DNA of 64,000 nucleotides from positions 1-64,000 of IMG/VR virus record IMGVR_UViG_3300025096_003363; one strand, given 5' to 3'. The notes under the pieces were generated by a model. It ran no database searches. It saw only the letters and a list, made by a program, of their open reading frames with translations, and was not told where the DNA came from. The position numbers were made by a program, and so were the translations under genes. Origin of the DNA: a virus. Positions 2-55,179 of the stretch are shown piece after piece (position 1 is the stretch's first letter; each line of letters begins with the position of its first letter).

Positions 2-1684
2 ACTGAGACCTTTACAGGTTCTGATGAAATTGTAGTATTAGATGGTTCGTCGCAAAAGAGAAAAGCTGCTAGCGAGATTGGTAATAGTGTATTCAATAAT
101 GATAGTGGTTGGACAGATTGTACAGGTACCACAACAGCGAGTAACTCGCAGACCTTTACAAACAAAGCCGGTAACATATCACAATGGACAAATGATAGTG
201 GTTATACAACTTGTACGGGTACTACGACAAATAGTAACTCGCAGACCTTTACAAACAAAGCCGGTAACATATCACAATGGACAAATGATAGTGGCTTTAC
301 CGATTGTACAGGAACCACAACAGCGAGTAACTCGCAGACGTTTACAAACAAAGCCGGTAACATATCACAATGGACAAATGATAGTGGCTTTACCGATTGT
401 ACAGGAACCACAACAGCGAGTAACTCGCAGACGTTTACAAACAAAGCTGGTAACATATCACAATGGACAAATGATAGTGGCTTTACCGATTGTACAGGAA
501 CCACAACAGCGAGTAACTCGCAGACCTTTACAAACAAAGGCGGTAATATATCACAATGGACAAATGATAGTGGCTTCGGAACCGGTGATATTACAGCTGT
601 GGTTGCAGGCACATTGTTAGATGGAGGAGCTACGAGTGGTAGTGCAACTTTAAATGTTGATCTTTCAGAGCTTTCTACATCAACTTCTGACGGTGACGGT
701 GATTATTTTGTTGTAACAGATGCATCAGACGCACAGAGAAAACTTACCAAAGGTAATATTAATAACAGCGGGTTTAATAATGATAGCGGGTTTACTGATT
801 GCGCAGGTACGGTTACAAGTGTCGCTGGTGGTGATGGTATGTCCGGTACCGTAACATCTTCCGGTTCGTTGGCAGTTGACAGCACAGTTATAAGAACGAC
901 AGGTACCCAAACCATAGGAGGATCAAAGACATTTTCTAGTGCGATCTGTACAGATTGTGTCCGGGCGACTGATGGAGACGGTCTTAAATTATATGATGAC
1001 GGTGGTAATGGTATATTTGTTGAAGATGGTGGTAATGTTGGTATAGGCTCCACCAACCCTGCTAACCTTCTCGATGTATGTAGCGGTAACTTAAACATAA
1101 ACAACGGGGGGTATTGCTTAAAATTTGGAGGAGCTTCTTCATGCTCTAGCATGTTCTTTTATGGTGATATGTATTGGTGTAATGAAACCGGTGATGTCAG
1201 GATCGATCAAGCGGCAGAAAATAAGGATATTATTTTCAAGACATGTGATGGGTCTATGAAAGAGACCATGAGGATTGATGGTAGTTCTCAACAAGTGGGC
1301 ATAGGTACTACAGCACCAAATGAACTTCTTACTGTTAAGGGTAGTATAAGTGCTAGTGGCGCGTTACAGGGACAACTTGATATTAATGCACAGACCGGTA
1401 CAACATATACTTTAGTAATAGGTGATAAAGGTAAATTAATTACTCTTAGCAATGGGAGTGCTATTACTCTTACAATACCTCCTAACAGCGATGTCGCCTT
1501 TCCTATAGGTACGGAAATTACAGTTACTCAATTAGGAGCAGGTCAGTTAACAATCGCTGAAGGAAGTGGCGTGACGGCTTCTGCTGCTGACGATGAATTA
1601 AAAACACGGGTACAATATAGTGCAGCTGTTTTAACCAAAATAGCTTCTGATACTTGGTTAGTAGCAGGAGACTTAACAGCATAA
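2..1684 (+). CDS. Tail fibre protein, 5' end missing
   Basis: The reading frame is open from the window edge, so the N-terminus lies outside. The first 190 or so residues contain five copies of a 31-residue repeat rich in Asn, Thr, Ser and Gly, built around NDSGFTDCTGT and NISQWTNDSG. Further on come two VGIG(S/T)(T/N)xPxxLL segments (near 1040 and 1300), a motif common in phage tail fibres, and a C-terminal beta-rich part with TIPPNSDVAFPIGTEITVTQ. Such proteins trimerise and form host-recognising fibres. No intramolecular chaperone (S74-type) catalytic domain is visible at the C-terminus. The downstream fibre gene starts 2 nt after the stop. Assignment as a fibre is secure in class, but not to a T4 gene number. 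Confidence 0.8.
   Translation, partial: TETFTGSDEIVVLDGSSQKRKAASEIGNSVFNNDSGWTDCTGTTTASNSQTFTNKAGNISQWTNDSGYTTCTGTTTNSNSQTFTNKAGNISQWTNDSGFTDCTGTTTASNSQTFTNKAGNISQWTNDSGFTDCTGTTTASNSQTFTNKAGNISQWTNDSGFTDCTGTTTASNSQTFTNKGGNISQWTNDSGFGTGDITAVVAGTLLDGGATSGSATLNVDLSELSTSTSDGDGDYFVVTDASDAQRKLTKGNINNSGFNNDSGFTDCAGTVTSVAGGDGMSGTVTSSGSLAVDSTVIRTTGTQTIGGSKTFSSAICTDCVRATDGDGLKLYDDGGNGIFVEDGGNVGIGSTNPANLLDVCSGNLNINNGGYCLKFGGASSCSSMFFYGDMYWCNETGDVRIDQAAENKDIIFKTCDGSMKETMRIDGSSQQVGIGTTAPNELLTVKGSISASGALQGQLDINAQTGTTYTLVIGDKGKLITLSNGSAITLTIPPNSDVAFPIGTEITVTQLGAGQLTIAEGSGVTASAADDELKTRVQYSAAVLTKIASDTWLVAGDLTA
105..575 (+). repeat. Five 93-bp in-frame tandem repeats in the tail fibre gene
   Basis: The same GTAACTCGCAGAC segment recurs at 141, 234, 327, 420 and 513, an exact 93-bp period (31 codons). 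Copies three to five are almost identical at DNA level, while the first two differ by scattered third-position and small codon changes. A degenerate NNDSGFTDC unit follows near 775-805. Near-identity suggests recent duplication or ongoing unequal recombination that changes fibre length. Confidence 0.95.
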
Positions 1685-1686
1685 AC

Positions 1687-2547
1687 ATGAAAGGCAAAAC
1701 AGGTATAATATCATCTAGACGAGATCTTTTAATGGACCTAGGGACTCCAGGGGATTATGACTTTGCAGTCTATGGAATGTATAGCCTTAGATATTTAAAT
1801 AGAGAATATAACGGTGATGTTATTCTAGGTTATAAGGATAGTTCTGGTGTAACACAGGGATTTACTCCTACGGAAATAATTGATGGAACATTAACAACGT
1901 TTGCAAACGGTGACCATGTAAGAGTTAAAACATTCTACGATCAAAGCGGAAATGGAAATGATGCTACTCAAACTGGTCGGTATAATATGCCGCCTATAGT
2001 TATATCTGGTACTTTAATGAAGCTAGATGGTACAGATTTGCCAGCAATAGACTTTGATGGTACAAATGATTTTATGCCTTTAAATAGCGCCCTTCCAGAT
2101 ATTCGAATAGGCCATTGTAGCTCATTTACTGTAGGTGAGTACGACAACACAACCACAAATCCTTTGGAAATGATGCTATCTTTAGGTTGGACTAATGCAT
2201 CAGCTAGATGGTTTGCACCAGCCGGTTATCAAGGTGACTGGCTTTTTGGTTATGCTAGTGTCTGGAACGAGCAAGTAATAACCGGTTTGGATCTAGATCC
2301 ACATCTCTATACTGCTATAGCCGGGTCTGACCAAGGAGATTGGAGATGTTTTATTGACGGTGACGAGGAAGGTACAGCTACTCGACAAGTTAGAAGCAGC
2401 GCTGGAGTTTATGGGATTGGTGGTGCTAGTAGTGTTACTAGCTATGCTTTAGACGGAAGGGTTGCTGAAGTATTAGTCTTCGACGGTGATTGTAGTACTA
2501 CGCGGGCGGCTATAGAAAAAAATATAATGGATTATTATGGTTTATAA
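1687..2547 (+). CDS. Lectin/arabinofuranosidase-like fibre-associated protein
   Basis: 286 residues from the ATG at 1687, 2 nt after the fibre stop; an upstream in-frame TTG at 1654 lies inside the fibre gene and is less likely. The N-terminal part (AVYGMYSLRYLN, then VRVKTFYDQSGNGNDATQ) matches the pattern of the alpha-L-arabinofuranosidase B catalytic-like/ConA-lectin fold often found in phage fibre and adhesin genes. PAIDFDGTNDFM and the later FIDGDEEGTATRQ and DGRVAEVLVFDG segments fit a LamG/concanavalin-like beta sandwich. It probably binds or trims host surface glycans at the fibre tip. I see no clear catalytic pair, so binding is likelier than hydrolysis. Likely co-transcribed with the fibre gene. 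Confidence 0.7.
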   Translation: MKGKTGIISSRRDLLMDLGTPGDYDFAVYGMYSLRYLNREYNGDVILGYKDSSGVTQGFTPTEIIDGTLTTFANGDHVRVKTFYDQSGNGNDATQTGRYNMPPIVISGTLMKLDGTDLPAIDFDGTNDFMPLNSALPDIRIGHCSSFTVGEYDNTTTNPLEMMLSLGWTNASARWFAPAGYQGDWLFGYASVWNEQVITGLDLDPHLYTAIAGSDQGDWRCFIDGDEEGTATRQVRSSAGVYGIGGASSVTSYALDGRVAEVLVFDGDCSTTRAAIEKNIMDYYGL

Positions 2548-2564
2548 TATACAATAAATTACTT

Positions 2565-2810
2565 ATGAAAGAATACGACTGGAATATAGCAGAATGTGAT
2601 CCGCTAAGAGAGCCCATGAGTGGCTATTACGTAGACTTAGTAGAATATACATTAGACGATGCCGGCATTCGAATATCTGATAACTATTTACAAGAACATC
2701 ATTTTAGTAATTATGCTACAGCATCAGCATATTGGGATAGTAATAAGCAAGATGGTTACATTCTCTACAATGAAGTAGAAGAAGGTATAGCAGGTAGGCA
2801 AGAGTTTTAA
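2565..2810 (+). CDS. Small acidic hypothetical protein
   Basis: 81 residues, starting at the ATG 17 nt after the lectin-like gene and ending before a weak hairpin terminator. The protein is acidic and aromatic (MKEYDWNIAECDPL, then ATASAYWDSNKQDGYILYNE), with no membrane segment or signal peptide. I do not recognise the family. Its position as last gene of the fibre operon suggests a fibre-related accessory (chaperone, adhesin cap) or simply a small virion protein; this is inference only. Confidence 0.55.
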   Translation: MKEYDWNIAECDPLREPMSGYYVDLVEYTLDDAGIRISDNYLQEHHFSNYATASAYWDSNKQDGYILYNEVEEGIAGRQEF

Positions 2811-2856
2811 AACTACTAGGCGTACCCTGTGTATCCCGTGGGAGAAGCAATGACAC

Positions 2857-2883
2857 GAGTAGAATACTACTCTTATTACTTTT
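2857..2883 (+). terminator. Weak hairpin terminator after the fibre operon
   Basis: GAGTAG (2857-2862), loop AATA, CTACTC (2867-2872), followed by TTATTACTTTT. The 6-bp stem is short, but the site lies between convergent genes (+ gene ending 2810, - gene ending 2916), where a terminator is expected. Confidence 0.45.
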
Positions 2884-2915
2884 AACTAAGTAAGGCGCTC
2901 TCCTAGGTTCTCTAG

Positions 2916-3530
2916 TTAGCGATAACCTAAAGCAACTAATCGACGGATATTAGGTCCAACATTTGTTTCAACGTTGTATGCATTACCTGTCGCGCTTAAT
3001 CCACCATAGCCGGTGTACCCATTACCTTTAGCGTTAAAATTAGTGTTACCTGCAGATAAAGTATAAGTAGCTGTAAACCCGTTTCTATATACTACAGCAA
3101 GGTCAATAGCTGCTGAAATAAATGTACAAATTGTAGTGTTTCTATGATTTGTATGAGGGGTTGCTCGGTTAGGCGTACTTAAGTGAATAACTCTTGTAGT
3201 ACGTGAAAGCCCAGAACTAGCATCATCTGCTTGTAGGGATGCATCTGTTTTCCACAAAACTCCCACTGCAGATAATCCGGGTCCTCCGGTAGTGTGTTGT
3301 GTACCCCACTGGTTGCCATATGAAGCTGTGCTGTGTATACCTATAAGAGCTGAACCTGTATCGTTGGGATTTGATCCAGAAGATAAAATATCAAACCCAG
3401 ATGTTCTTGCTATATTCTTACCGATCGCGTTACTTACAAAAGGTACCTCGTCTAAGAGCTGTGGAGGATCGATAACATCGTTAGCAAAAAAGCCATTAGT
3501 GTATGAAGTGATTGGAATATTCTGTGCCAT
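2916..3530 (-). CDS. Virion-type protein with its own late promoter, function unknown
   Basis: 204 residues rich in Gly, Asn, Ser and Thr, without membrane segments. No family is recognised. It lies directly downstream of the major capsid gene but is separated from it by a strong terminator, and has an ATAAATA late box 5 nt before its ATG. The composition (SAGNTNFNAKGNGYTGYGG) resembles small capsid decoration or head-fibre proteins, and independent late expression beside gp23 fits a highly expressed virion component. That role is inferred from context, not from a motif. Confidence 0.6.
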   Translation of the reverse strand: MAQNIPITSYTNGFFANDVIDPPQLLDEVPFVSNAIGKNIARTSGFDILSSGSNPNDTGSALIGIHSTASYGNQWGTQHTTGGPGLSAVGVLWKTDASLQADDASSGLSRTTRVIHLSTPNRATPHTNHRNTTICTFISAAIDLAVVYRNGFTATYTLSAGNTNFNAKGNGYTGYGGLSATGNAYNVETNVGPNIRRLVALGYR

Positions 3531-3535
3531 ATTAA

Positions 3536-3542
3536 TATTTAT
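3536..3542 (-). promoter_or_regulatory. Late promoter box ATAAATA
   Basis: On the - strand ATAAATA is followed by TTAAT and then the ATG at 3530. It lies between the gp23 terminator and this gene. Spacing to ATG is exactly 5 nt. Confidence 0.7.
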
Positions 3543-3572
3543 TGAAATGTGTTTGAATTTACGTAACTAAAG

Positions 3573-3610
3573 CAAAAAAAAACGATGGAACTTTCGTTCC
3601 ACCGTTTTTG
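3573..3610 (-). terminator. Rho-independent terminator after the major capsid gene
   Basis: The - strand reads ACGGTGGAAC, GAAA loop, GTTCCATCGT (10-bp stem with one G-T pair), then a run of eight T. The + strand also has a T run after the hairpin, so it may work both ways. It separates gp23 from the downstream virion gene. Confidence 0.9.
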
Positions 3611-3653
3611 TGATTTGTCTCTCGACTGCTGCTTAATCAGCGACGTTCTAAGA

Positions 3654-5192
3654 TTAGAAGTACACTGACTGAGAAGCCGGAGTAAACGCAGTACCGAGTC
3701 CCTGAACAATAACTACATGGTAGTAGAGATCAGCCCCGAAGATGTTGTCAACAACACCATAACGAGTAAGCAAGCCAACACGTGGCGCGAAGTCGTTAGG
3801 ACCAATAGTTCTCTGAACCATGACAGGAATGTAAGGACAATAAATGATACCAGTGTCGTAGAACTCAGGACCTTTGTAACCAAGCAACGCATACTCGATG
3901 TTAGCAGTACCATTTGAGTCATACTGATTAACATTAGGATTGTTGTAGTAACTAGAGTTCTGAACCTCTGTTCTGGTATCACGGTAAACGTTGAATCTCC
4001 CACCGAGTGAACCAACCTTTGCAATACCAACAGGCTGCGTGTTAACATCACCCTGCACAGGCACCCACTGAAATTCAGGGAGCATCTCGAGGATGGCGCA
4101 AACACGAGGAGTAGCAACAACAAAGTTAGCTGCTCCACGTCTGTTACGTACGGCGATACGATTGGCTTCGATGATAAGACGTTGATAGAAGTCCCTATTA
4201 CGCTCGACCATCCAACGACCATCTGCAGAAGCAGGTGACCAGAGGGAGTAGCCTTTGTTCAGTCCAGCTCCGAGAGCCGACTGGATCATTCTCATGAGCA
4301 TTTCACGGTCGATCTCAGCCTGAATCTCATACGACATAGCGTTTGTGATCTCGGCGTCAATATCGATACCATTCATGTTCTTAAGATCTTGCTCAAGTTC
4401 GACAGACCAACGTGCGCCAAGACGGCGTGTGCCGGCCTCAACTGCTGTTTTCTCGAACTTAACCTCGACCTGAGGAATGTTACCAGTAATCTCGAAAGCG
4501 GAAAGAATCTGAGCGACACCTTTATCTTGCGCAGTGAAGGCCCAAGTTGAACCATCAGGAGTACCACTCAACCGTGTCGAAGACGTACCGGTGAAGCGGG
4601 TATCAAGAAGTTGGTATCCAAGTTCATCACCCGGAAGACCGGCAGCGCCATCATATATCTTGTTATCTCCTGCAATCGTTGGATGCGAACCAGGCGTAAA
4701 TCCTGGACCTGTAGTACCAGATCCAATAGGATTGGTAGTAGCATCACCAGTACCATCAGTACCGGCTCCAAGATAAGTAGACTCGTAAGCATAACGAAGA
4801 GCAAAAGCAAGTCCAACAGGACCTGACATAGGCTGGACACCAACGATTTCGTTAGTGATAAGCTCAGGGAACGTACGACGAATCATCGGGATAAGCACTT
4901 TAGGAAGACGAGCGTCACCAGGAGCATAATTATCATTCGACCCGGTAGTACCAGGCGGAGAGAATATGTTCGAAGTAGAAGCACCGCTACCGAAGGCTCC
5001 ACCGTGACCGGCGGAGTTTGCTTCTTCAATACACCACTTTTCCTGGTTCTCAAGAAGAATGGCGGTATTTAAACGGGTATGATCGTCTTCAATGGGCTTA
5101 ACACTATCAGAAGAATATTCAAGAACAGGTGCCCACTTCTCAAGAAGTGTATCTGCTCTATCTCTATCTATAAATGACTGTGGTTTGTTCAT
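3654..5192 (-). CDS. gp23: Major capsid protein gp23
   Basis: 512 residues, close to the 521 of T4 gp23. It forms the hexameric HK97-fold capsid shell. Recognisable segments are the N-arm (AGHGGAFGSG... YAPGDARLPKVL, residues 61-100), IPMIRRTFPELITNEIVGVQPM and RWSVELEQDLKNMNGIDIDAEI. A predicted gp21 cleavage site is IEE/A at residues 55-58, matching removal of the first 65 residues in T4. Gene order gp20-gp21-gp22-gp23 is conserved. No ATAAATA box lies in the 86-nt gap before it. Instead there are two small hairpins and an AAGGAAA ribosome-binding site 9 nt upstream of ATG, one of few good Shine-Dalgarno sites in the window. Confidence 0.97.
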   Translation of the reverse strand: MNKPQSFIDRDRADTLLEKWAPVLEYSSDSVKPIEDDHTRLNTAILLENQEKWCIEEANSAGHGGAFGSGASTSNIFSPPGTTGSNDNYAPGDARLPKVLIPMIRRTFPELITNEIVGVQPMSGPVGLAFALRYAYESTYLGAGTDGTGDATTNPIGSGTTGPGFTPGSHPTIAGDNKIYDGAAGLPGDELGYQLLDTRFTGTSSTRLSGTPDGSTWAFTAQDKGVAQILSAFEITGNIPQVEVKFEKTAVEAGTRRLGARWSVELEQDLKNMNGIDIDAEITNAMSYEIQAEIDREMLMRMIQSALGAGLNKGYSLWSPASADGRWMVERNRDFYQRLIIEANRIAVRNRRGAANFVVATPRVCAILEMLPEFQWVPVQGDVNTQPVGIAKVGSLGGRFNVYRDTRTEVQNSSYYNNPNVNQYDSNGTANIEYALLGYKGPEFYDTGIIYCPYIPVMVQRTIGPNDFAPRVGLLTRYGVVDNIFGADLYYHVVIVQGLGTAFTPASQSVYF

Positions 5193-32424: not shown

Positions 32425-33180
32425 TTATACCTTTAATGCCATATCCCAGATTAAGAGATGCAACCTAGGTGAAAAATTTACATCCATAGCTTTTGCATAT
32501 TCTGCTACAGCTGGTGCGTTTTCGATATGTTCTTTTCTGCTACCTGAACAAGGCATAAACCATATTCTATTTTTTGGAACCCGGACAGTTTTATCGTCAA
32601 CATATTTACGCCATATTTCGTTAATATCTTCATCAGACGTAATAACAAACTTAAAGCCGGATCCAACCTCTCTATGCCATTTTAACACTTCCGGTTTATA
32701 TGAACGCTCTTCGGGATCCCCGTTGGATATAAGTTTAGGTGAAGTTGTAAACGAGGCAAAAAATTCATCTAACCACCTTTCATCGGGTTTAATTGTAGCA
32801 TTGGTTTCAAAATCTATTACAGGGTGGTAATTATATTTTTTAATAAATGCTGTCATAAACTTAAGAAGCTGCTTTTGCTGGACTAGAGGCTCACCACCGG
32901 TAATTTTGAGAATAGCTCCGTTACGTAATTTGTCTACTAATTTATGCTCTTCAAAATATTTAAATATTTCATTAAATGTCATTTTGTTTTTTACAGACCA
33001 AGAGATATATGAGTCACAGCCATGCGGTGAGTCCTCTGAAGCAAAGCCTTTGCATGTTAGGTTACACATCGAAAGTCTAAAAAACACCGATGGCATGCCA
33101 ACATATTCACCCTCACCTTCAAGTGTATAAAATGCCTTATCATCAGATACAAGGAGAGTTTCTTTATTACAATCAATCAT
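32425..33180 (-). CDS. queE: 7-carboxy-7-deazaguanine synthase (QueE), unusual Cys spacing
   Basis: 251 residues from the ATG at 33180. An early promoter 7 nt upstream favours this over the in-frame TTG at 33216, which overlaps the -35 box. FYTLEGEGEYVGMPSVFFRL is the QueE N-terminus. The radical SAM cysteines are C39, C43 and C55, spacing CX3CX11C instead of CX3CX2C, with an 11-residue insertion before CDSYISW. ILKITGGEPLVQQKQLL is the SAM loop, FETNATIKPD and SPKLISNGDPEERSY follow. Makes CDG from carboxy-tetrahydropterin, the step after QueD. Confidence 0.9.
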   Translation of the reverse strand: MIDCNKETLLVSDDKAFYTLEGEGEYVGMPSVFFRLSMCNLTCKGFASEDSPHGCDSYISWSVKNKMTFNEIFKYFEEHKLVDKLRNGAILKITGGEPLVQQKQLLKFMTAFIKKYNYHPVIDFETNATIKPDERWLDEFFASFTTSPKLISNGDPEERSYKPEVLKWHREVGSGFKFVITSDEDINEIWRKYVDDKTVRVPKNRIWFMPCSGSRKEHIENAPAVAEYAKAMDVNFSPRLHLLIWDMALKV

Positions 33181-33230: not shown

Positions 33231-33962
33231 ATGAGTGTTAAATCTGCGCGGCTGCGTCGGGTAAGCTCTTCTGATACTGAGCTTACAGAATCCCTTGAAC
33301 ATAATTGGTTGTTTAATTTTAAAATTAAGAGGCCTTTTTACTTTAACCCCAAACATCGCGAGTTCTATAACTGTGTTAAGAACCCTAAAACAAAAATGGG
33401 GTTTGTTGATGGGCCTGCAGGTAGTATGAAGACATATATTGCTGTATACGCCGGTTTAGAATTAATAAGAGAGGAGAAGTTCCAGCGACTGGTTTACATT
33501 AGATCTGTTACAGAATCCGCAGAGAGAAGCTTAGGGTCACTTCCGGGTGAAATTGATGATAAGTTTTCACCGTATTCAATTCCTCTTGAAGAAAAGATAA
33601 CTGAAATTGCTGATCGTGGTACATATGGTATGCTTAAGCAAAAGGGTGTTGTTGAGGCTATACCTGTTAACTTTGTTAGAGGTTTAACGTTTAACAAAGC
33701 TTTAGTTATTGTTGATGAAGCACAAAATTTATCTCGTAAAGAACTAACAACAATCCTAACTAGATTTGGAAGAGATACAAAATATATTGTAATTGGTGAC
33801 TGTAATCAAGCTGATGTAAATAAATCTGGGTATAAAGAAATATTTAACATGTTTAATAATAAACAATGTACGGATAATGATATATATTCCTTTAAGTTCG
33901 GGATCTCAGAAATAGCTAGAAGTAAGATACTTCGTTTTATTTGCTCTGTATTAGGAACTTAA
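33231..33962 (+). CDS. phoH: PhoH-family ATPase
   Basis: 243 residues. NPKHREFYNCVKNPKTKMGF precedes the P-loop VDGPAGSMKTYIAVYAGLEL, in which the usual Gly before Lys is Met; ALVIVDEAQNLSRKEL is Walker B and YIVIGDCNQADVN sensor I. PhoH genes are a marker of marine phages; the protein is an ATPase of the RNA-helicase-like PhoH family with unclear role in infection. The stop overlaps the queD stop by 4 nt. It has a late box in front and is divergent from queE. Confidence 0.92.
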   Translation: MSVKSARLRRVSSSDTELTESLEHNWLFNFKIKRPFYFNPKHREFYNCVKNPKTKMGFVDGPAGSMKTYIAVYAGLELIREEKFQRLVYIRSVTESAERSLGSLPGEIDDKFSPYSIPLEEKITEIADRGTYGMLKQKGVVEAIPVNFVRGLTFNKALVIVDEAQNLSRKELTTILTRFGRDTKYIVIGDCNQADVNKSGYKEIFNMFNNKQCTDNDIYSFKFGISEIARSKILRFICSVLGT

Positions 33963-34663
33963 TTACCCCAAGAAGTACCTTTAAAGGGATCACTAAAATT
34001 AGTGTCTCGATCTACATCACCACCTACACGAGCTGCTTTTGGATTTTCATTGGATGAATCATCCTTTGGCTGTATAGTAGTTGTTACCGGTCCTTCCTGA
34101 TCCACATCTGCAGAAGATTCCCTTTGTTGTTGCCAATCTTTCCAAGTTTTTTCGAATTCTTCATGTGTGACATATAGTTTACCACCTTCCTCATCAACAT
34201 ATGTTGTATTCTCAGTTAAGGGCTTTGTATAACTTGCCCAATTATCCCCATGCTCTGTTACAGTAACGTTTACAACAAAACATCTCCCTTCAGTAACTTC
34301 ATCAATCCACGTATCTGCAGTTTTAAAGACCCATTCTGCAAATCTTTCAACACCTACGCCACCATCCATAATTCTAAGTTGAATTATATTCTTTTCATGA
34401 AGTGTTTTAAAAGTATCTAATTCCGGATCATCACCTGCAACTACAGTAGTATGATCAAATTGATCTCGTAAAGCTTGTTTAAGATCATCTAACCCTCCAA
34501 AGTCAACACACCAGTTTTTATCATCTAATGATTTACAGCCAAAGGTAAATTTAGCTTTAAGTTGATATCCATGCAAATATTTACAGTGGCTATGTGATGC
34601 TCTCCATTGACGAAATGCTGCAGAGCCTAATTCAATTAGTTTTGACGATGTATAAACGCTCAT
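33959..34663 (-). CDS. queD: 6-carboxy-tetrahydropterin synthase (QueD)
   Basis: 234 residues, with a T-fold domain to about 155 and a disordered tail of about 70. FRQWRASHSHCKYLHGYQL contains the catalytic Cys27 and zinc-ligand region; the canonical HGH is HGY here (H31, Y33), so one zinc His appears replaced, perhaps by H24 or H26. DFGGLDDLKQALRDQFDHTTVV and VNVTVTEHGDNWASY (catalytic Glu/His area) complete the family. Makes 6-carboxytetrahydropterin from dihydroneopterin triphosphate. The promoter has a perfect TTGACA and TATAAT. Confidence 0.9.
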   Translation of the reverse strand: MSVYTSSKLIELGSAAFRQWRASHSHCKYLHGYQLKAKFTFGCKSLDDKNWCVDFGGLDDLKQALRDQFDHTTVVAGDDPELDTFKTLHEKNIIQLRIMDGGVGVERFAEWVFKTADTWIDEVTEGRCFVVNVTVTEHGDNWASYTKPLTENTTYVDEEGGKLYVTHEEFEKTWKDWQQQRESSADVDQEGPVTTTIQPKDDSSNENPKAARVGGDVDRDTNFSDPFKGTSWGN

Positions 34664-36005: not shown

Positions 36006-36662
36006 ATGGATCGAACTAAAGTTACTAAATTACCGACGGCTAATGGTAATATGCCTCTAACAGGTGTAGAAAAGGAAGAAATTATTGAAGATGCAGCAAA
36101 GGCTTATGAGAAGTACCTAGATGCGCTTAGAATTGACTGGCGAAACGATCCTAATAGCGATAATACACCTAAAAGAGTAGCAAAAGCTTTTGTAACTGAC
36201 TTAGCTGCTGGTTGTTATAACGAACTTCCAAATGTTACAGCATTTCCATCAGATGGATACGATGGAATGGTGTTTCAAGGTGGTATTCCTGTTAAGTCAT
36301 TTTGTTCACACCACCATTTACCGTTTTCAGGTAGAGCTCATGTAGCTTATATACCGTCTCCGAGCGGAAAGGTCATTGGATTGAGTAAATTAAACAGAAT
36401 TGTTGAGCATTATGCAAGAAGACCGCAGATTCAAGAAGGTTTAACCATGCAGATTCATAAAGCTATTGATGAAATTTGTGAAGGTAATAAAGGAGTTGCT
36501 GTTATGATTTCTGCTACTCATACATGTGCTTGTCTAAGGGGAATTAAGCACGATGGGTGTGAAATGAAGACTAGTCGACTTAGTAGTGACTTTTTAGATG
36601 ATATTGCTACTAGAAATGAGTTTTATCAGTTTGTGTCTGACTGGAGAGGTCAATGTATCTAA
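36006..36662 (+). CDS. folE: GTP cyclohydrolase I (FolE)
   Basis: 218 residues, full length. [20 protein letters not shown] carries the zinc Cys and His residues, [20 protein letters not shown] is the conserved catalytic block, and [21 protein letters not shown] has the second zinc Cys. Makes 7,8-dihydroneopterin triphosphate from GTP, which QueD then uses; this is the entry to preQ0. Early promoter. The stop overlaps the retropepsin-like gene stop by 4 nt. Confidence 0.95.
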
Positions 36663-37099
36663 TAAGATGCCTCTATTTCTTCATCAGCGATGTTTTCTTG
36701 ACTAACATCAATAAGAGCACCTAGCTCTTTTTCAATAAAATCCTTACTTACTAAGATTTTAAATAGGTTTGTAGATCTATCGCCTACTGAAAAGGGTATA
36801 TCTTTAAATTCCTTGTTGCCGATTTTAAGATCGAAGTTAACTACAGGTCTTTCTTCAGTATTACCAGCACCGACATTAATAACAATAGTATCTACCTTAT
36901 CCTTTATAAGATGTTTGTTGTTAACTGTCTTAAAAAGCACTTTATTACCCTGCACTTGTATATCTTCCCCATGAATAACGTTAAATGCACCGTTACCAGA
37001 GTCGAGTTTTGATGGAATTTTACCAATACCATCTACATCAAAGAACTCGATGAGTCCTAAGACTTGTTTTTCTAAAAAGAACCGGTTAAAATTTTTCAT
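36659..37099 (-). CDS. Retropepsin-like / RimB-type protease domain protein
   Basis: 146 residues. After an [11 protein letters not shown] peptide comes [26 protein letters not shown], the pattern of ATP-dependent zinc protease/retropepsin-like (DUF785) proteins, where a DTG-type loop is DSG here. [25 protein letters not shown] strands follow. T4-like marine phages carry similar proteins of unknown role; a peptidase active in the capsid is possible. The N-terminus resembles T4 capsid-targeting sequences. Late box 9 nt before ATG. Confidence 0.55.
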
Positions 37100-37476: not shown

Positions 37477-37483
37477 TATTTAT
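37477..37483 (-). promoter_or_regulatory. Late promoter box ATAAATA
   Basis: ATAAATA, then ATAGT (5 nt), then the ATG at 37471. It lies at the 3' end of the adenylyltransferase-like gene. Confidence 0.7.
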
Positions 37484-38019
37484 GCTAGTATGGCCTTTAT
37501 TTGATCTCTATCCTCAATGGATATTTCCTCGGGTACAAAATAATCTAACGCTTCGTCAATATCTTGCTGTATTATTTGTCTTGTCTCACTACCAGATATA
37601 CCTTCCTCCTGCATTGGTATCTTTACCACATTCACATAAGGGTACTTTTCAACATTATCCTGAAAATACTTGTATCGTTTAACATCCGCATCCTTTTCAC
37701 CCGCACCAACTAACAATGTTTTATCTAAATTTGCATCAGCGAAGTCGTAAACAGCCTTTACAGGGTTAGGTACATACACAACCTCTACATTCTTATCAAA
37801 ATATCTTGAGTATATCTTCCATATTTGTTCAGACTGCTCAGGTGTAATACCTTCACGCTCCTTACCACCAATAAATACGACACCTCTATCAGCATCATCA
37901 AGCAAATACCTTAAAGCATTAAAGTGACCCTTTGTAGGCGGTTTAAATCCACCGGGAAGCAGAGCGATTCGCTCAACTCTTGTCTCCATATCTTCAAAAT
38001 ATTCTATAAATGTCCTCAT
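37480..38019 (-). CDS. NMN adenylyltransferase-like nucleotidyltransferase
   Basis: 179 residues. An MRTFIEYFEDM N-terminal peptide precedes IALLPGGFKPPTKGHFNALR, in which TKGH is the (T/H)xGH nucleotide-binding motif; EEGISGSETRQIIQQD is the C-terminal ISSTxxR-like motif. These define the NMNAT/cytidylyltransferase fold. The substrate may be NMN (making NAD) or another mononucleotide or phospho-alcohol. ATG overlap with the next gene upstream (38016) couples it to the KxDG protein. The N-terminal peptide is like T4 capsid-targeting sequences. Confidence 0.75.
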   Translation of the reverse strand: MRTFIEYFEDMETRVERIALLPGGFKPPTKGHFNALRYLLDDADRGVVFIGGKEREGITPEQSEQIWKIYSRYFDKNVEVVYVPNPVKAVYDFADANLDKTLLVGAGEKDADVKRYKYFQDNVEKYPYVNVVKIPMQEEGISGSETRQIIQQDIDEALDYFVPEEISIEDRDQIKAILA

Positions 38020-39224
38020 GACCCGGGTTTATCTTTTTGAAAGTTAGCTGAACTAAAATCTAATCTGTTAACAAGCTTAACAGCATTACCATCTCTATCA
38101 ACCGCTACATATCCCTCTGGAGAAGTAACTCTCAACTTACCTTCACCCTCGTCGATAAAGTGTTTAGTGTTATAAACAGCATTATTGTACTTGTTAATAA
38201 AGATTTGCTTAGCCTGTGATAATAAACTACTAACCTTAAACAGATTAACTATGTCATCCTTTTGAGCTTGGAACTGAGCTGTTTTTTGCTTAAGAGTTTC
38301 TTCTAATCTTTGCTTTCCACGCTTAGATTTTCTCTTATCAACCTCTTTATTAATTCTAGTAGTATACCATTCAATAAAGTTTCTATAAGACTCTTCTGGA
38401 TCATTTAAGAACTTACCTTCTCGAATCTCCGTATTAATATAAGGGTTGAGAAGATCAGAAGGTAAGTCCTTGTAATCTATTTTGATTGAATCAGCGGTTT
38501 TTATTAAGTCTCTAACCTGCTTTACTTCATCTTTTGTTAAATTTACAACGCCTGTATCGTCTTTAAAGTAGGCATCATCAAACCAAACACCTGGAACCTG
38601 CTTCAACCGGTTAACTTTAGCACCAAACGCCGCCGGGCTGTCTAAATCGTTATATTCTGTATGGAATATGATACCAAACACGGAGTTAGCTATCTTTTTA
38701 CCTAGATCTGAATTAGCCTCTACTGCATATTTGATCGTATTAGGTTGAAATGTGTAATGAACTACACCATCTATGTTCTCTTTCTTAACCGATGAAGAAT
38801 CAAACATAAAATCACCCTGCATTATGTTCTTAATACCTAACTTAGGTAGATATTTTAAAGCCTTCTTAAGTTTATCCGCTAAACCAGGGGCATGCCCGTG
38901 ATTAACTTCAACATCTTGGTCATTATAGTTAATTTTAGGCTCTTTATTAAAGACAGCCTTAGTACCAACAAAGAATTTACCGGTATCAGGGTGCTTTCCA
39001 GCAAAGATAGCAGGGGCTCCATCCCATTTTACCGTAGTACCGATCTTTCTTTTACTCTTTCCTTGTAAATGGCCGAGTAAATTAGTTAAAAAGCCCCTAG
39101 CCTGGTCATAACCACCCTTACCTCTTGTAAGGATCAGTTCTTCTAAGTGTGTAAGGTGTGTATTAGCCTTAGCTTCCTCGATTAACTCTAAGTAATGTTC
39201 GAAATATAGTTTAAAGTTTTTCAT
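38016..39224 (-). CDS. Putative KxDG covalent nucleotidyltransferase (ligase-like)
   Basis: 402 residues. Usually annotated only as hypothetical in such phages. K66-W-D-G (TVKWDGAPAIFAG) is a perfect motif I of ATP ligases and capping enzymes; QGDF (136-139) could be motif III, FGIIFHTEY (183-191) motif IIIa, EGYVAVD (370-376) motif IV and VKLVNR (382-387) motif V, with a 180-residue helical insertion between. The N-terminus MKNFKLYFEHYLELIEEAK contains an IEE/A prohead-protease-type site and resembles capsid-targeting peptides. If active it would join or adenylate RNA or DNA ends. The assignment is mine from motif order. Confidence 0.5.
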   Translation of the reverse strand: MKNFKLYFEHYLELIEEAKANTHLTHLEELILTRGKGGYDQARGFLTNLLGHLQGKSKRKIGTTVKWDGAPAIFAGKHPDTGKFFVGTKAVFNKEPKINYNDQDVEVNHGHAPGLADKLKKALKYLPKLGIKNIMQGDFMFDSSSVKKENIDGVVHYTFQPNTIKYAVEANSDLGKKIANSVFGIIFHTEYNDLDSPAAFGAKVNRLKQVPGVWFDDAYFKDDTGVVNLTKDEVKQVRDLIKTADSIKIDYKDLPSDLLNPYINTEIREGKFLNDPEESYRNFIEWYTTRINKEVDKRKSKRGKQRLEETLKQKTAQFQAQKDDIVNLFKVSSLLSQAKQIFINKYNNAVYNTKHFIDEGEGKLRVTSPEGYVAVDRDGNAVKLVNRLDFSSANFQKDKPGS

Positions 39225-40592
39225 TTATTTTATTGTTAAGTTATAACCTCCGCGTCCCCCACCTGTATTAGGTGAAATAGTAATACTGTCACCTAATTCG
39301 AATAATTTCTGTATAGAGCTGGTTGCATATTCCCTGTAACCCTTTCCCTTAAAGGGGCCTATTGTTACCATGTTAAAGTTATCCTTATTAAAGAATAAAA
39401 AGTAATTAAAGCCTTGACCCTTTTCTTCTTCTTCTTTAAAATATTCTGCTATTTGAAACCCAGCAGCTATTTTACGGCCCTTTAACTCCGGATCACCAGC
39501 CGCATCTAAAAAGGAATCAATAATACTAACTGCACTATCTGGTTCAGATGAAAATTCCGACAAACCAGCTACTAATTTTTCACGTGGTGCTTTAGCAAAA
39601 AAACTATTTGTAATTATAGCCTCACCAGCATCTCTCATTTTAAGTTCTTCTCTTTGATCAGCTAAATATTTTGTTACATCAATACCTTTACTATCTTTTA
39701 TATTCTCAAAATAATCTCTACGCCGTACATCCTTTTCAACCAACTTTAACTTAGTCTCTAAATCGTAACTACTATTATCAATAACACTAATTACCCGGTC
39801 AACAACGCGTTGTTGTGCTGGAGCTACATTAAATTCGTAATCTTTTATAGCACTAAACACAGTCTGAATTATATTTTCATCTATATTGGCTTCTTTTAAT
39901 TGAAGTTTTGCAAATTTATTAAAGTTACGTATTAAACCTAACGTTTTTCCCTTACCCGGTCTACCTGCACCTGACTTGACCTCAACCAACGATCCATCTG
40001 GTAGTGTTATATCACCCTCTTTTGGATTTTTACCCTCTGAAAACAATGTTAAAACCGCCTCCCCGGGCCCAACTCCAACTGCCCCCTCTTCAAAAGTTAT
40101 CTGTGACATTAATTCGACAGCCTTTCTATTTGTTACATGCTTAAGATCGTATTTAGCTCCTAGTTTTTCAATTACACGTAAAAAATTAGCTGTTCCCTTA
40201 TTTAGCGCTTGTTGTAAATCTGATAATCTGTTTGAATTTTTTAAACGAGTTAATCTTTCTACTTCATCATAAAATTCTTCCCTAATACCCACGTTATCTA
40301 ATTGTATAGACTTAGCATATATGTCATTTATTCGAACACTTAAATTATAGATAGCCGAAGGGCTATCCCAACCCCCTGATTCAACCCAGTCGTTAATTAC
40401 ACCAATTGATGTATTCTGTTTACCTAATCTTAATAACTTTCTAGCTTCGTCTTGATCTATTTCAACCTCTTTAATATTACCATCGTCAAACTCTATAGTT
40501 ACTTTTGCTTCATCTAGTACATGAAGATGTTCACGAGGTGGAATATTACCACGTACCCGCTTTTTATAAACGTCTTCTAATGACCATTGCAT
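39225..40592 (-). CDS. PD-(D/E)XK-like nuclease-fold protein
   Basis: 455 residues. The core GPGEAVLTLFSEGKNPKEGD followed by ITLPDGSLVEVKSGAGR gives E178, D194 and E204-x-K206, spaced as in PD-(D/E)XK nucleases. The rest is helical; the C-terminus has FNYFLFFNKDNFNMVTIGPF and a Gly-rich end (NTGGGRGGYNLTIK). No CTS-like start (MQWSLEDVYKKRVRG). It lies between two CTS-type genes with 2-nt and 0-nt gaps, and may be a capsid-borne or packaging-associated nuclease. Confidence 0.6.
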   Translation of the reverse strand: MQWSLEDVYKKRVRGNIPPREHLHVLDEAKVTIEFDDGNIKEVEIDQDEARKLLRLGKQNTSIGVINDWVESGGWDSPSAIYNLSVRINDIYAKSIQLDNVGIREEFYDEVERLTRLKNSNRLSDLQQALNKGTANFLRVIEKLGAKYDLKHVTNRKAVELMSQITFEEGAVGVGPGEAVLTLFSEGKNPKEGDITLPDGSLVEVKSGAGRPGKGKTLGLIRNFNKFAKLQLKEANIDENIIQTVFSAIKDYEFNVAPAQQRVVDRVISVIDNSSYDLETKLKLVEKDVRRRDYFENIKDSKGIDVTKYLADQREELKMRDAGEAIITNSFFAKAPREKLVAGLSEFSSEPDSAVSIIDSFLDAAGDPELKGRKIAAGFQIAEYFKEEEEKGQGFNYFLFFNKDNFNMVTIGPFKGKGYREYATSSIQKLFELGDSITISPNTGGGRGGYNLTIK

Positions 40593-40594
40593 GA

Positions 40595-40939
40595 TTAGTG
40601 TGCGTCTACAGTTTCAAGCTCTTGTTCAACGGTCTCGTCAGAAAATTCAACTAACCTTTCTATTGTTTCAATAACCTTTCTAGGCTGTGTCCTCCCAAAC
40701 TCTTTGTTGACCTGTGCAGCAATGTTTATATCTTGCATATTAGGTGCATATATAAAGGCATTAGTCAACAGCTCAGCAACATATATTTCACCTTCTGGAG
40801 AAATGCCTGTTGGCGCTGGGGGAATATCTGCAACATCAGTAGCATCCGCTTCGACATCGACGTTAACGTCAACCTCCTCTACTTCATCCTGCTCAGAATA
40901 AAGCTCTTTATATTGTTCAAATAGTTTTAATGTTTTCAT
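40595..40939 (-). CDS. Small acidic late-cluster protein
   Basis: 114 residues, very acidic centre (VEEVDVNVDVEAD). N-terminus MKTLKLFEQYKELYSEQDE is amphipathic and close to the T4 capsid-targeting type (MKTYQEFIAE). The second half is helical (LLTNAFIYAPNMQDINIAAQ). No family recognised. It is in one operon with its neighbours (stop 2 nt before the next ATG). A capsid-internal protein is suggested by start peptide and acidity. Confidence 0.6.
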   Translation of the reverse strand: MKTLKLFEQYKELYSEQDEVEEVDVNVDVEADATDVADIPPAPTGISPEGEIYVAELLTNAFIYAPNMQDINIAAQVNKEFGRTQPRKVIETIERLVEFSDETVEQELETVDAH

Positions 40940-40941
40940 AA

Positions 40942-41349
40942 TTATTGTTCTGTGGGTTCTGTGGCTTTATCTCTTATTGCTTGTTTTAACTCTTCTGTCT
41001 TCTTTTGAAAAACTGATACAGCGTCTTTTGCTACTCTCTGTCTTTCCTTTACAGCTTTTTTAGCGCCTCTAGCACCGGAAAACATACCACCTTGATTTGC
41101 TAATCTGTTAACCTCTCTATCAACATCATATTTCTCAGGCCCGGTTTGAATTTCTTGATCTTCCACAGGAATAAGCGGAACCTCTATACCACCAACACTA
41201 TCCTCAAAAGCTAAAAAATTCTCAAAAGGCGATCCAACACCAGATATTGCAAAACGTCTCATTACTTTACCATTAACATCCTTCAACTCTACAGTATATT
41301 TGTCCTCACCTGGTCGATTCTCTTCTAACAGTTTAAGAAACTTATTCAT
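40942..41349 (-). CDS. Small late protein with MNKFLKLLEE start
   Basis: 135 residues, charged. The N-terminus MNKFLKLLEENRPGEDKY has LEE/N, a [LI]xE-type cleavage site, following an amphipathic helix. The middle KVMRRFAISGVGSPFENFLAF is beta-like; the C-terminal third is a Lys/Glu-rich coiled coil. No known domain. Its late box lies 5 nt before ATG. Confidence 0.6.
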   Translation of the reverse strand: MNKFLKLLEENRPGEDKYTVELKDVNGKVMRRFAISGVGSPFENFLAFEDSVGGIEVPLIPVEDQEIQTGPEKYDVDREVNRLANQGGMFSGARGAKKAVKERQRVAKDAVSVFQKKTEELKQAIRDKATEPTEQ

Positions 41350-53312: not shown

Positions 53313-54449
53313 ATGGATAAAGATATTACTAGTGCATTGGATGCTATTGATAAAGTAAACCCCTTCGCAACTTATTTAGATAACAATTCACTCAGTCACG
53401 TTGGATCATGGATTGATACAGGATCTTATGTGCTAAACGCAATTATTTCCGGTTCAATTCACGGCGGAATACCTAAAGGTAGAGTAACAGTACTTGCCGG
53501 TGAGTCGATGACAGGTAAGTCGCTTTTTGTCCAAAAAATTCTAGCCAAGGCCCAGGAGGACGGGCTCGTCCCTGTTATCTTTGATACTGAAAATGCTATT
53601 GACCCGGAAGGAGCTGCAAGATTAGGGCTAGATATTAGCAAAGTTAAATATGTTCCTTGTACTAGTATTGAACAAACTCGTAATTCACTGTATAAGTTTC
53701 TTATGGTGGTAAAAGAAAAGGGACTAGAGGGTAAGTTTATTGTAGCTATTGACTCACTAGCTAATCTTCAATCAGAGCTTGAACTGTCGCGGATGAGTAA
53801 AGACAGTGTTAGTTCAGATATGGGTACAAAAGCGCGCGCAATGAAGACATTAATGCAAACTTGTACAAATTTAGGGTCAGTTACACAAACCACTATCCTA
53901 TGTACTAATCATGTCTATGATGACCCAACAGCTCTGTTTCCTTCTATTGAAAAAAATATGCCAGGTGGTAAATCATGCATTTATCTTCCATCAGTAACAG
54001 TTCAACTAGCACGCAAGCCAATGAAATCAGATGGCGGTAAGACTGTTGATGGGGAATTGGCAGTTGGTCAGAAAAAATACGCTGGAATTATTATTAGAGC
54101 CCTTACGCGTAAAAATAGATTTATTAAACAGTACCTTGAAGGTGAAATATACCTTTCATTTGCTTCTGGACTTGATCGCTACTATGGATTAGTTGATCTG
54201 GCCGTTGGTGTTGGTGCAGTAGTTCAAACTGGAGCAACTTATCAGCTTGAAGATGGTACTAAGCTAGGCTATTATAAGAATTGGAGGAAGGATGTTAAAC
54301 TTTGGGAAGAGACTATTCTTCCAAAACTTGAAGAACGAATTAAAGATGAGTGGTCTTATAGTAATAAAGAAGAAGAGCCACCTGATGAATTAGGTTTAGA
54401 TGGTTTAGATGATTTAATTAATGAAAAAGAAACTAGTACTGACTCTTAG
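53313..54449 (+). CDS. uvsX: Recombinase UvsX (RecA-like)
   Basis: 378 residues from the ATG at 53313 (T4 391). An open frame reaching back to 53199 crosses the terminator and is not coding. Walker A LAGESMTGKSLFVQKIL, the catalytic Glu in VIFDTENAIDPEG, Walker B FIVAIDSLANLQSEL, then SDMGTKARAMKTLMQTCTN (loop region) and TTILCTNHVYDDP. Strand exchange in recombination-dependent replication with UvsY and gp32. Its end overlaps queC by 29 nt. Confidence 0.95.
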   Translation: MDKDITSALDAIDKVNPFATYLDNNSLSHVGSWIDTGSYVLNAIISGSIHGGIPKGRVTVLAGESMTGKSLFVQKILAKAQEDGLVPVIFDTENAIDPEGAARLGLDISKVKYVPCTSIEQTRNSLYKFLMVVKEKGLEGKFIVAIDSLANLQSELELSRMSKDSVSSDMGTKARAMKTLMQTCTNLGSVTQTTILCTNHVYDDPTALFPSIEKNMPGGKSCIYLPSVTVQLARKPMKSDGGKTVDGELAVGQKKYAGIIIRALTRKNRFIKQYLEGEIYLSFASGLDRYYGLVDLAVGVGAVVQTGATYQLEDGTKLGYYKNWRKDVKLWEETILPKLEERIKDEWSYSNKEEEPPDELGLDGLDDLINEKETSTDS

Positions 54450-55179
54450 TGGGGGAATGGACTCATCTGTGCTGTTGTATATGGCACAAGATAGAGGCTA
54501 TGATCATATACATACCATAACCTTTGACTATGGTCAAAGGCATAAACAAGAACTCGCTTGTGTTAAAAAACAAATTAATAATTTTAATAACATGTTTAGC
54601 GGGTGGTTTAATTTAAAGATTACTAATAAGGTCTTAGATGTAAAGTATATTAAAGACATTGCGCCTACCTCATCTTTAACTAATAAAGATATTGATAATC
54701 CTAATATTAGCGAGATGGCAGGTGATGCACAGCCTGTCTCATACGTACCGTTTCGGAATTTAATGTTTCTATCTATTTGCTCGTCATATGCTGAAAGTGT
54801 AGGTGCAGATACAGTATGGTATGGTGCTGCACAGGTTGATTCACTAGCTGGGTATTGGGACGGTAGTGAAGAGTTTGTTAATGTAGTTAATGAAGTAACA
54901 GATCTTAATAGAGAGAACAGAATTAACATTGAAGCACCGCTTCTTGACATGTCGAAGGCTGCAATTGTTAAAGAAGGAATTAGACTAGGAGTTACATATG
55001 GTGATACATGGACATGCTATTCGAATAGAGAAGATGGGCTAGCTGATGCCACAACTCCGTCAAGTAGTATGCGAATAACGGGGTTTATTGATGCTGGGTA
55101 TGAAGACCCTATTCAATATGTCCAACAGGAAAAGTTGGATGACCTATACAAAGAAAATAACTGCAAGGAGTGTGCTTAG
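54421..55179 (+). CDS. queC: 7-cyano-7-deazaguanine synthase (QueC) lacking the usual zinc Cys cluster
   Basis: 252 residues. PP-loop LSGGMDSSVLLY (residues 9-20), TITFDYGQRHKQEL, VSYVPFRNLMFLS, INIEAPLLDMSKAAIVKEG and GDTWTCY (C199) are QueC. The usual CxxCxxC zinc cluster after it is replaced by ADATTPSSSMR, while the C-terminus gains C248-KE-C251. The zinc site may thus be rewired (C199, C248, C251) or lost. Converts CDG to preQ0 with ATP and ammonia. Starts inside the uvsX end, so it is co-expressed with uvsX. Confidence 0.9.
   Translation: MKKKLVLTLSGGMDSSVLLYMAQDRGYDHIHTITFDYGQRHKQELACVKKQINNFNNMFSGWFNLKITNKVLDVKYIKDIAPTSSLTNKDIDNPNISEMAGDAQPVSYVPFRNLMFLSICSSYAESVGADTVWYGAAQVDSLAGYWDGSEEFVNVVNEVTDLNRENRINIEAPLLDMSKAAIVKEGIRLGVTYGDTWTCYSNREDGLADATTPSSSMRITGFIDAGYEDPIQYVQQEKLDDLYKENNCKECA

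Follow-up and report, generated by a model that had tools for sequence, protein, structure and literature searches.

The window analysed here comprises 64,000 nucleotides, positions 1 to 64,000 of the IMG/VR virus record IMGVR_UViG_3300025096_003363. On its minus strand, an open reading frame (ORF) at 38016-39224 encodes a protein of 402 amino acids, P0001, while the plus strand is stop-rich across the same interval. P0001 matches the Pfam family DUF6267 (PF19782) over the entire model (positions 1-376 of 376, E = 2.3×10−98, 330 bits versus a gathering score of 27), and is a member of phrog_455, to which no function is assigned. An earlier note, made from the sequence alone, had proposed a divergent ligase or capping-type nucleotidyltransferase, of a kind normally left as hypothetical. 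The annotation of listed isolates agrees with the latter remark, DUF6267 proteins being called hypothetical or named after a fused neighbour, and our literature search found no paper mentioning DUF6267. We lean towards the view that DUF6267 is an unrecognised family of the ligase superfamily which, in this lineage, is packaged in the head and acts in repair at entry. The features of the gene are the following.

38016..39224, minus strand: P0001, DUF6267 protein, placed by prediction among the covalent nucleotidyltransferases (polynucleotide ligase superfamily; Pfam, AlphaFold2 model, VIA-align)
39174..39224, minus strand: leader at the N-terminus (MKNFKLYFEHYLELIEE, residues 1-17), a candidate for capsid targeting in which LxE/IxE are possible prohead-protease sites (low model confidence; leaders of relatives)
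39018..39029, minus strand: motif I, K66-W-D-G69, with the predicted AMP-accepting lysine (K66, D68 and G69 in 110/110 readable relatives)
38958..38960, minus strand: K89, invariant basic residue after the hairpin following motif I (110/110; preceded by strands 72-77 and 84-87)
38808..38819, minus strand: motif III, Q136-G-D138-F (D138 in 110/110; within strand 134-142)
38652..38678, minus strand: motif IIIa, FGIIFHTEY, residues 183-191 (H188 in 111/111; strand 183-191)
38169..38567, minus strand: insertion between IIIa and IV, mostly helical, about residues 220-352 (DSSP on the model, alignment)
38100..38117, minus strand: motif IV, E370-G-Y-V-A-V (E370, G371 and V373 invariant; strand 371-375)
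38064..38078, minus strand: motif V, K383-L-V-N-R387, atypical, with a single lysine and an invariant arginine (K383 and R387 in 110/110)

All motifs named by the earlier note were located in the ORF, in the order it gave: KWDG (66-69), QGDF (136-139), FGIIFHTEY (183-191), EGYVAVD (370-376) and KLVNR (383-387). Motifs IIIa and IV are indeed about 180 residues apart, and the model is mostly helix between about 231 and 349; this insertion is much shorter in the alignment for P-SSM2-type members. Conservation was read from 111 relatives sharing less than 90% identity, some columns being readable in 110. K66, D68, G69, K89, D138, E370, G371, K383 and R387 are kept in every readable relative, so that the KxDG conservation which the proposal called for is present. 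Also invariant are H23, H26 and E28, close to where the domain begins, as well as F390, N394 and F395 past motif V, and position 385 within motif V is V in 102 relatives and I in 8. By inspection, K89 is placed like R55 of T4 Rnl2. A KxDG tetrad in a single 402-residue protein is not a rare chance occurrence; the motif set is significant because it is conserved across the 111 relatives. Conservation reaches at least 97% at 35 positions, and these include all eight motif positions (66, 68, 69, 89, 138, 370, 371, 383); the hypergeometric P is about 1.5×10−9, for positions that were picked after the motifs and earlier alignments had been seen.

An AlphaFold2 model of P0001, built with 60 homologues, reached a pLDDT of 89 and a pTM of 0.86, with low confidence limited to residues 1-19 and the last four. 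The strands bearing motifs I, III, IIIa, IV and V follow one another in the expected order. When the model was compared with the PDB by VIA-align, all 50 listed entries were covalent nucleotidyltransferases, and no unrelated fold was found among those 50. The best match was the Naegleria RNA ligase (Z 8.9, rmsd 3.7, 184 residues), followed by the tRNA ligase Trl1 (7.9), TbREL1 (7.7), T4 Rnl2 (7.4) and T4 Rnl1 (7.3), then by archaeal RNA ligases (6.5-7.2) and human DNA ligases I, III and IV (6.1-6.6); according to the tool's own warning, Z values of 7-9 may arise without kinship. In BFVD, the RNA ligase of Agrobacterium phage Atu_ph07 was matched with an E value of 2×10−3 and a probability of 0.99. 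Conservation and predicted fold thus agree on the nucleotidyltransferase core that the earlier note had read from the motifs, and we hold with high confidence that DUF6267 has it. That the family is a nucleic-acid ligase appears probable, with a modest preference for RNA over DNA as predicted substrate. P0001 has no DNA-binding domain and ends 15 residues past motif V, and the OB domain with motif VI found in PF01068 DNA ligases is absent. Given this absence and the atypical motif V, a ligase of the RNA type, or a minimal one, is more probable than a DNA ligase of the classical kind.

In T4, the internal proteins ipII and ipIII start with MKTYQEFIAEA, and ipI with MKTFKEFTST. Many relatives of P0001 begin with comparable leaders, for example MKFSEYITESK, MNRFAQYISEAK and MKTLSNFLVEEK, directly followed by a conserved NxHLEHLE, and the prohead protease may cut after an LxE/IxE-type sequence in these leaders. 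N-termini were scored by their match to the T4 internal-protein leader (background median 6, with 6.7% of scores at 20 or above). Median scores were 14 for DUF6267 proteins lacking an N-terminal fusion and 16.5 for the cytidylyltransferase-like enzymes described below (CTases), versus 6 for other ORFs. Both groups scored above the other ORFs (Mann-Whitney U, P = 2×10−18 and 1×10−7, values which ignore relatedness, as the sequences are not independent). A stricter leader pattern, tried first, gave a weaker contrast in the same direction (36/141 versus 52/1139). Several high-scoring ORFs in the "other" class adjoin DUF6267, among them kinase, HAD, retropepsin-like and nuclease-like genes.

The relation between leader and packaging was measured in cyanophage S-CREM2, where the scores of 103 non-structural or hypothetical proteins were set against the published virion proteome. 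Five of the six proteins scoring at least 17 are in the virion, versus 19 of the 97 others (Fisher P = 0.0024), and cut-offs of 14, 17 and 20 each gave P about 0.002. A plain rank test of virion proteins versus the rest was not significant (P = 0.46); only the high-score tail is informative in this phage, because most virion proteins have no leader. The high-scoring virion proteins are the CTase, an APH-like kinase, a SAM hydrolase, gp13 and gp136. The MKxFxxFLxE leader thus marks S-CREM2 virion proteins of unrelated function, and could be a general predictor of injected proteins in cyanomyoviruses. A cytidylyltransferase was also detected in virions of S-SM1 (PMC3037559), and this protein starts with MKKFSAFLNEA, i.e. 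it carries the leader. We consider it fairly probable that P0001 is packaged in the head of this phage.

Three neighbouring genes complete the picture.

37480..38019, minus strand: P0002, HxGH (cytidylyltransferase/NMNAT-like) nucleotidyltransferase with leader MRTFIEYFEDM (4-base overlap with the P0001 gene; motif)
39225..40592, minus strand: P0003, PD-(D/E)xK-like protein encoded immediately upstream; its leader is of another kind and stops close to a conserved LxE (conservation in 33 relatives)
36659..37099, minus strand: retropepsin-like gene with leader, possible further head protein of the cluster (PF05618, E = 9.6×10−5, 22.8 bits, sub-threshold for a cut-off of 27)

The P0001 gene directly follows 39225-40592 and stops inside the start of the P0002 gene. 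As the earlier note had it, the overlapping gene is NMNAT-like, with the HxGH motif in GGFKPPTKGH, its own match to Pfam CTP_transf_like being weak (E = 0.037). This association is recurrent: among 170 DUF6267 loci, the CTase is fused to DUF6267 in 37 and lies within 2.5 kb in a further 64, together 101, and it is present in 66 of the 104 loci having at least 2.5 kb of downstream sequence. Fusions occur at N- and C-terminal ends alike. One is found in Synechococcus phage S-PM2; in its record AJ630128, DUF6267 is split over two frames, the second part being fused to the CTase, and the other S-PM2 record, LN828717, gives a single DUF6267 match. A HAD-like domain is fused to DUF6267 in 16 of the 170 loci, and metagenomic relatives of up to 1384 residues combine the CTase, a HAD-like segment (DFDDT...LTAR...DDS) and DUF6267 in one protein. 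The 1384-residue fusion (61-4215 of its locus) also has an uncharacterised middle region and is reminiscent of polyvalent injected proteins. In distant phages, HAD phosphatases are among the genes lying directly downstream of DUF6267, as are P-loop kinases of the ADK and AAA_33/zeta types, and several of these neighbours have a leader. The HAD assignment rests on motifs and sub-threshold Pfam hits, because a PDB sequence search with the HAD-like segment of the 1384-residue fusion and one HAD neighbour found no match.

In P0003, residues G175, E178, G193, D194 and E204 are invariant among 33 relatives, and K206 and E28 nearly so; the resulting pattern E...GD...ExK is the signature of PD-(D/E)xK nucleases. 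Its AlphaFold2 model was poor (pLDDT 59) and was not used for fold search, and a search of the phage collection gave no match to P0003. In other loci, the place upstream of DUF6267 is commonly taken by D...(S/E)xK proteins. As predicted from their motifs, the roles of the DUF6267 neighbours fit end processing and sealing. The retropepsin-like gene has the top leader score of the window (22), and a gene of this type with a leader recurs across many related loci. The segment 34751-41349 could be a gene cluster for proteins packaged in the head. Two small genes at 40595-41349, on the minus strand, start with MKTLKLFEQYKELYSEQ and MNKFLKLLEENRPGE.

DUF6267 is present in 465-470 phage records, nearly all from T4-like phages of Synechococcus and Prochlorococcus; phages of Pelagibacter, Methylophilales and Stenotrophomonas also have it. 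It is near-universal in T4-like cyanophages: 371 Synechococcus-named records contain it, versus 374 with a UvsX/RecA match, taken as a rough denominator. The family also occurs on a 188 kb contig of the bacterial isolate assembly Nonlabens xiamenensis 1Q3, the contig size suggesting a co-sequenced phage genome rather than the chromosome. Homologues of T4 g30, the DNA ligase gene, were not found in cyanomyoviruses, either because they are absent, which the authors of the review judged more probable, or because distant homologues went unidentified (PMC2984593). In ten DUF6267 phages searched, no PF09414 or PF01653 ligase was found, and nine lacked PF01068, the exception being Stenotrophomonas phage DLP_6. 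A family-wise ligase search of the window's own genome, a 98.8 kb and possibly incomplete record, found none, which is weak evidence of absence. S-CREM2 gp190 (38030-38533 of its stretch), annotated as DNA ligase, has 167 residues and no KxDG; it was not counted as a ligase and is probably misnamed.

Several observations, besides the VIA-align warning, weigh against a packaged ligase. Motif V has the form K383-x-V385-x-R387, with one lysine in place of the KxK of covalent nucleotidyltransferases, and motif III has D in place of the usual E. Foldseek by itself was weak (best E = 0.28, not significant), and a Pfam scan of P0001 returned no ligase family, PF09414 included, at E 1. Profile-profile comparison, a route the earlier note had suggested, gave it no support: hhalign of DUF6267 versus T4 Rnl2, whether the helical insertion was kept or removed and in local and global modes alike, yielded E values of 0.1-0.9 and a probability below 1%. 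PDB sequence searches, run for P0001 alone and for a profile of the family, likewise returned chance matches only, mainly in the helical region. The ligase-superfamily assignment therefore rests on fold and motifs, Foldseek alone and profile-profile comparison having given nothing significant. As to packaging, the leader of P0001 itself scores just 11 against the T4 template, short cyanophage DUF6267 copies have no leader, and the leaderless copy of S-CREM2 was not found in the published virion proteome of that phage. The earlier idea of a ligase in the capsid keeps a capsid-targeting-like leader at the family level, but packaging does not extend to all members, the short cyanophage ones being without a leader. 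Lastly, DLP_6 has a normal DNA ligase as well as DUF6267, which is therefore more than just the absent replicative ligase and probably does something beyond replicative sealing.

This last point bears on the alternative that DUF6267 is a cytosolic ligase replacing T4 gene 30, closing nicks that arise as phage DNA replicates and recombines, with an incidental leader. The lack of a recognised g30 ligase in T4-like cyanophages and of PF01068 in nine of the ten DUF6267 phages searched, the near-universal presence of the family in these cyanophages, often near uvsX/g41, and the many leaderless cyanophage copies all speak for it. We regard it as unlikely, given that DUF6267 has no OB or DNA-binding domain, that its top structural matches are RNA ligases, that DLP_6 carries both genes, and that in distant phages the linkage is to CTase, HAD and kinase genes, not to replication genes. 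Alternatively, the enzyme could be a covalent nucleotidyltransferase with another target, capping or adenylylating RNA ends, or modifying a small molecule or protein, and cooperating with the HxGH enzyme in the metabolism of nucleotides or NAD. The very frequent fusion or proximity of that enzyme, the deviation of motif V from ligases and the earlier note's idea of NAD-type ends are in keeping with this; however, the nearest folds are ligases, and HAD phosphatase and P-loop kinase partners suit end healing, which makes it distinctly improbable. A capping enzyme proper, also considered, was ranked low; nothing speaks specifically for it, since RNA ligases head the structural matches and the OB domain with motif VI of capping enzymes is absent. 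The atypical motifs III and V, together with a leader resembling those of head proteins, could also denote a catalytically dead nucleotidyltransferase fold, kept as a structural or scaffold head protein. We give this very little credit, as 110/110 relatives have kept the catalytic lysine and the acidic residues, which would be unlikely for a dead enzyme.

Among known systems, the core of DUF6267 is best matched by the Naegleria gruberi RNA ligase (PDB 5cot, 6vt3), whose motifs I, III, IIIa and IV are ordered alike, but identity is 12%, and DUF6267 lacks the N-terminal OB domain and has the helical insertion before motif IV and a single-lysine motif V. T4 Rnl2 (PF09414) and Rnl1 are phage-encoded, have a KxxG-type motif I and an EG motif IV, and match the fold; in contrast, there is no profile similarity to Rnl2, DUF6267 has no Rnl2-type C-terminal domain, and the T4 ligases are not known to be packaged in the head. 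With ipI, ipII and ipIII, many DUF6267 members share a short MKTYQEFIAEA-like leader, for which packaging, cleavage and injection are expected. These T4 proteins, however, are small inhibitors or unknowns, none a recognised ligase-fold enzyme, and the match of the P0001 leader is weak. Finally, HAD phosphatases and P-loop kinases near some relatives recall the phage repair sets of kinase/HAD phosphatase and RNA ligase (T4 pseT and Rnl1; jumbo phages, PMC7824862), whereas the commonest DUF6267 partner is the HxGH nucleotidyltransferase, and several partners have head-targeting-like leaders.

For the packaged ligase that we favour, we infer the following course. K66 would accept AMP from ATP or NAD+ as nucleotide cofactor, and the protein, once adenylylated, would seal nucleic-acid ends, most likely of RNA. 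P0001, made with a T4-type capsid-targeting leader, would be packed into the prohead together with its co-operonic HxGH and PD-(D/E)xK-like partners, its leader being clipped by the prohead protease; injected with the DNA, it would then repair breaks made by host defences at entry. More speculatively, and rather doubtfully at this stage, marine T4-like phages might share a head-packaged, injected repair set (DUF6267, the HxGH nucleotidyltransferase and PD-(D/E)xK protein, in some a HAD phosphatase and P-loop kinase), sometimes joined in one large fusion, which would mend tRNA or DNA cut by host defences, with the leaderless versions serving as the unrecognised cyanophage ligase.

T4-like cyanophages are among the most abundant ocean viruses, and a family near-universal in them has so far had no assigned function. 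DUF6267 is now a named candidate for the distant ligase homologue whose possibility was raised by the review (PMC2984593), with K66 as a specific residue for mutation. Should the leader function as it appears to, injected enzymes of marine phages could be recognised by a simple rule at the sequence level. Elsewhere in the window, the genes at 32425-33180, 33959-34663, 36006-36662 and 54421-55179 appear by inspection to be QueE-, QueD-, FolE- and QueC-like, respectively, which suggests a 7-deazaguanine pathway in this phage.
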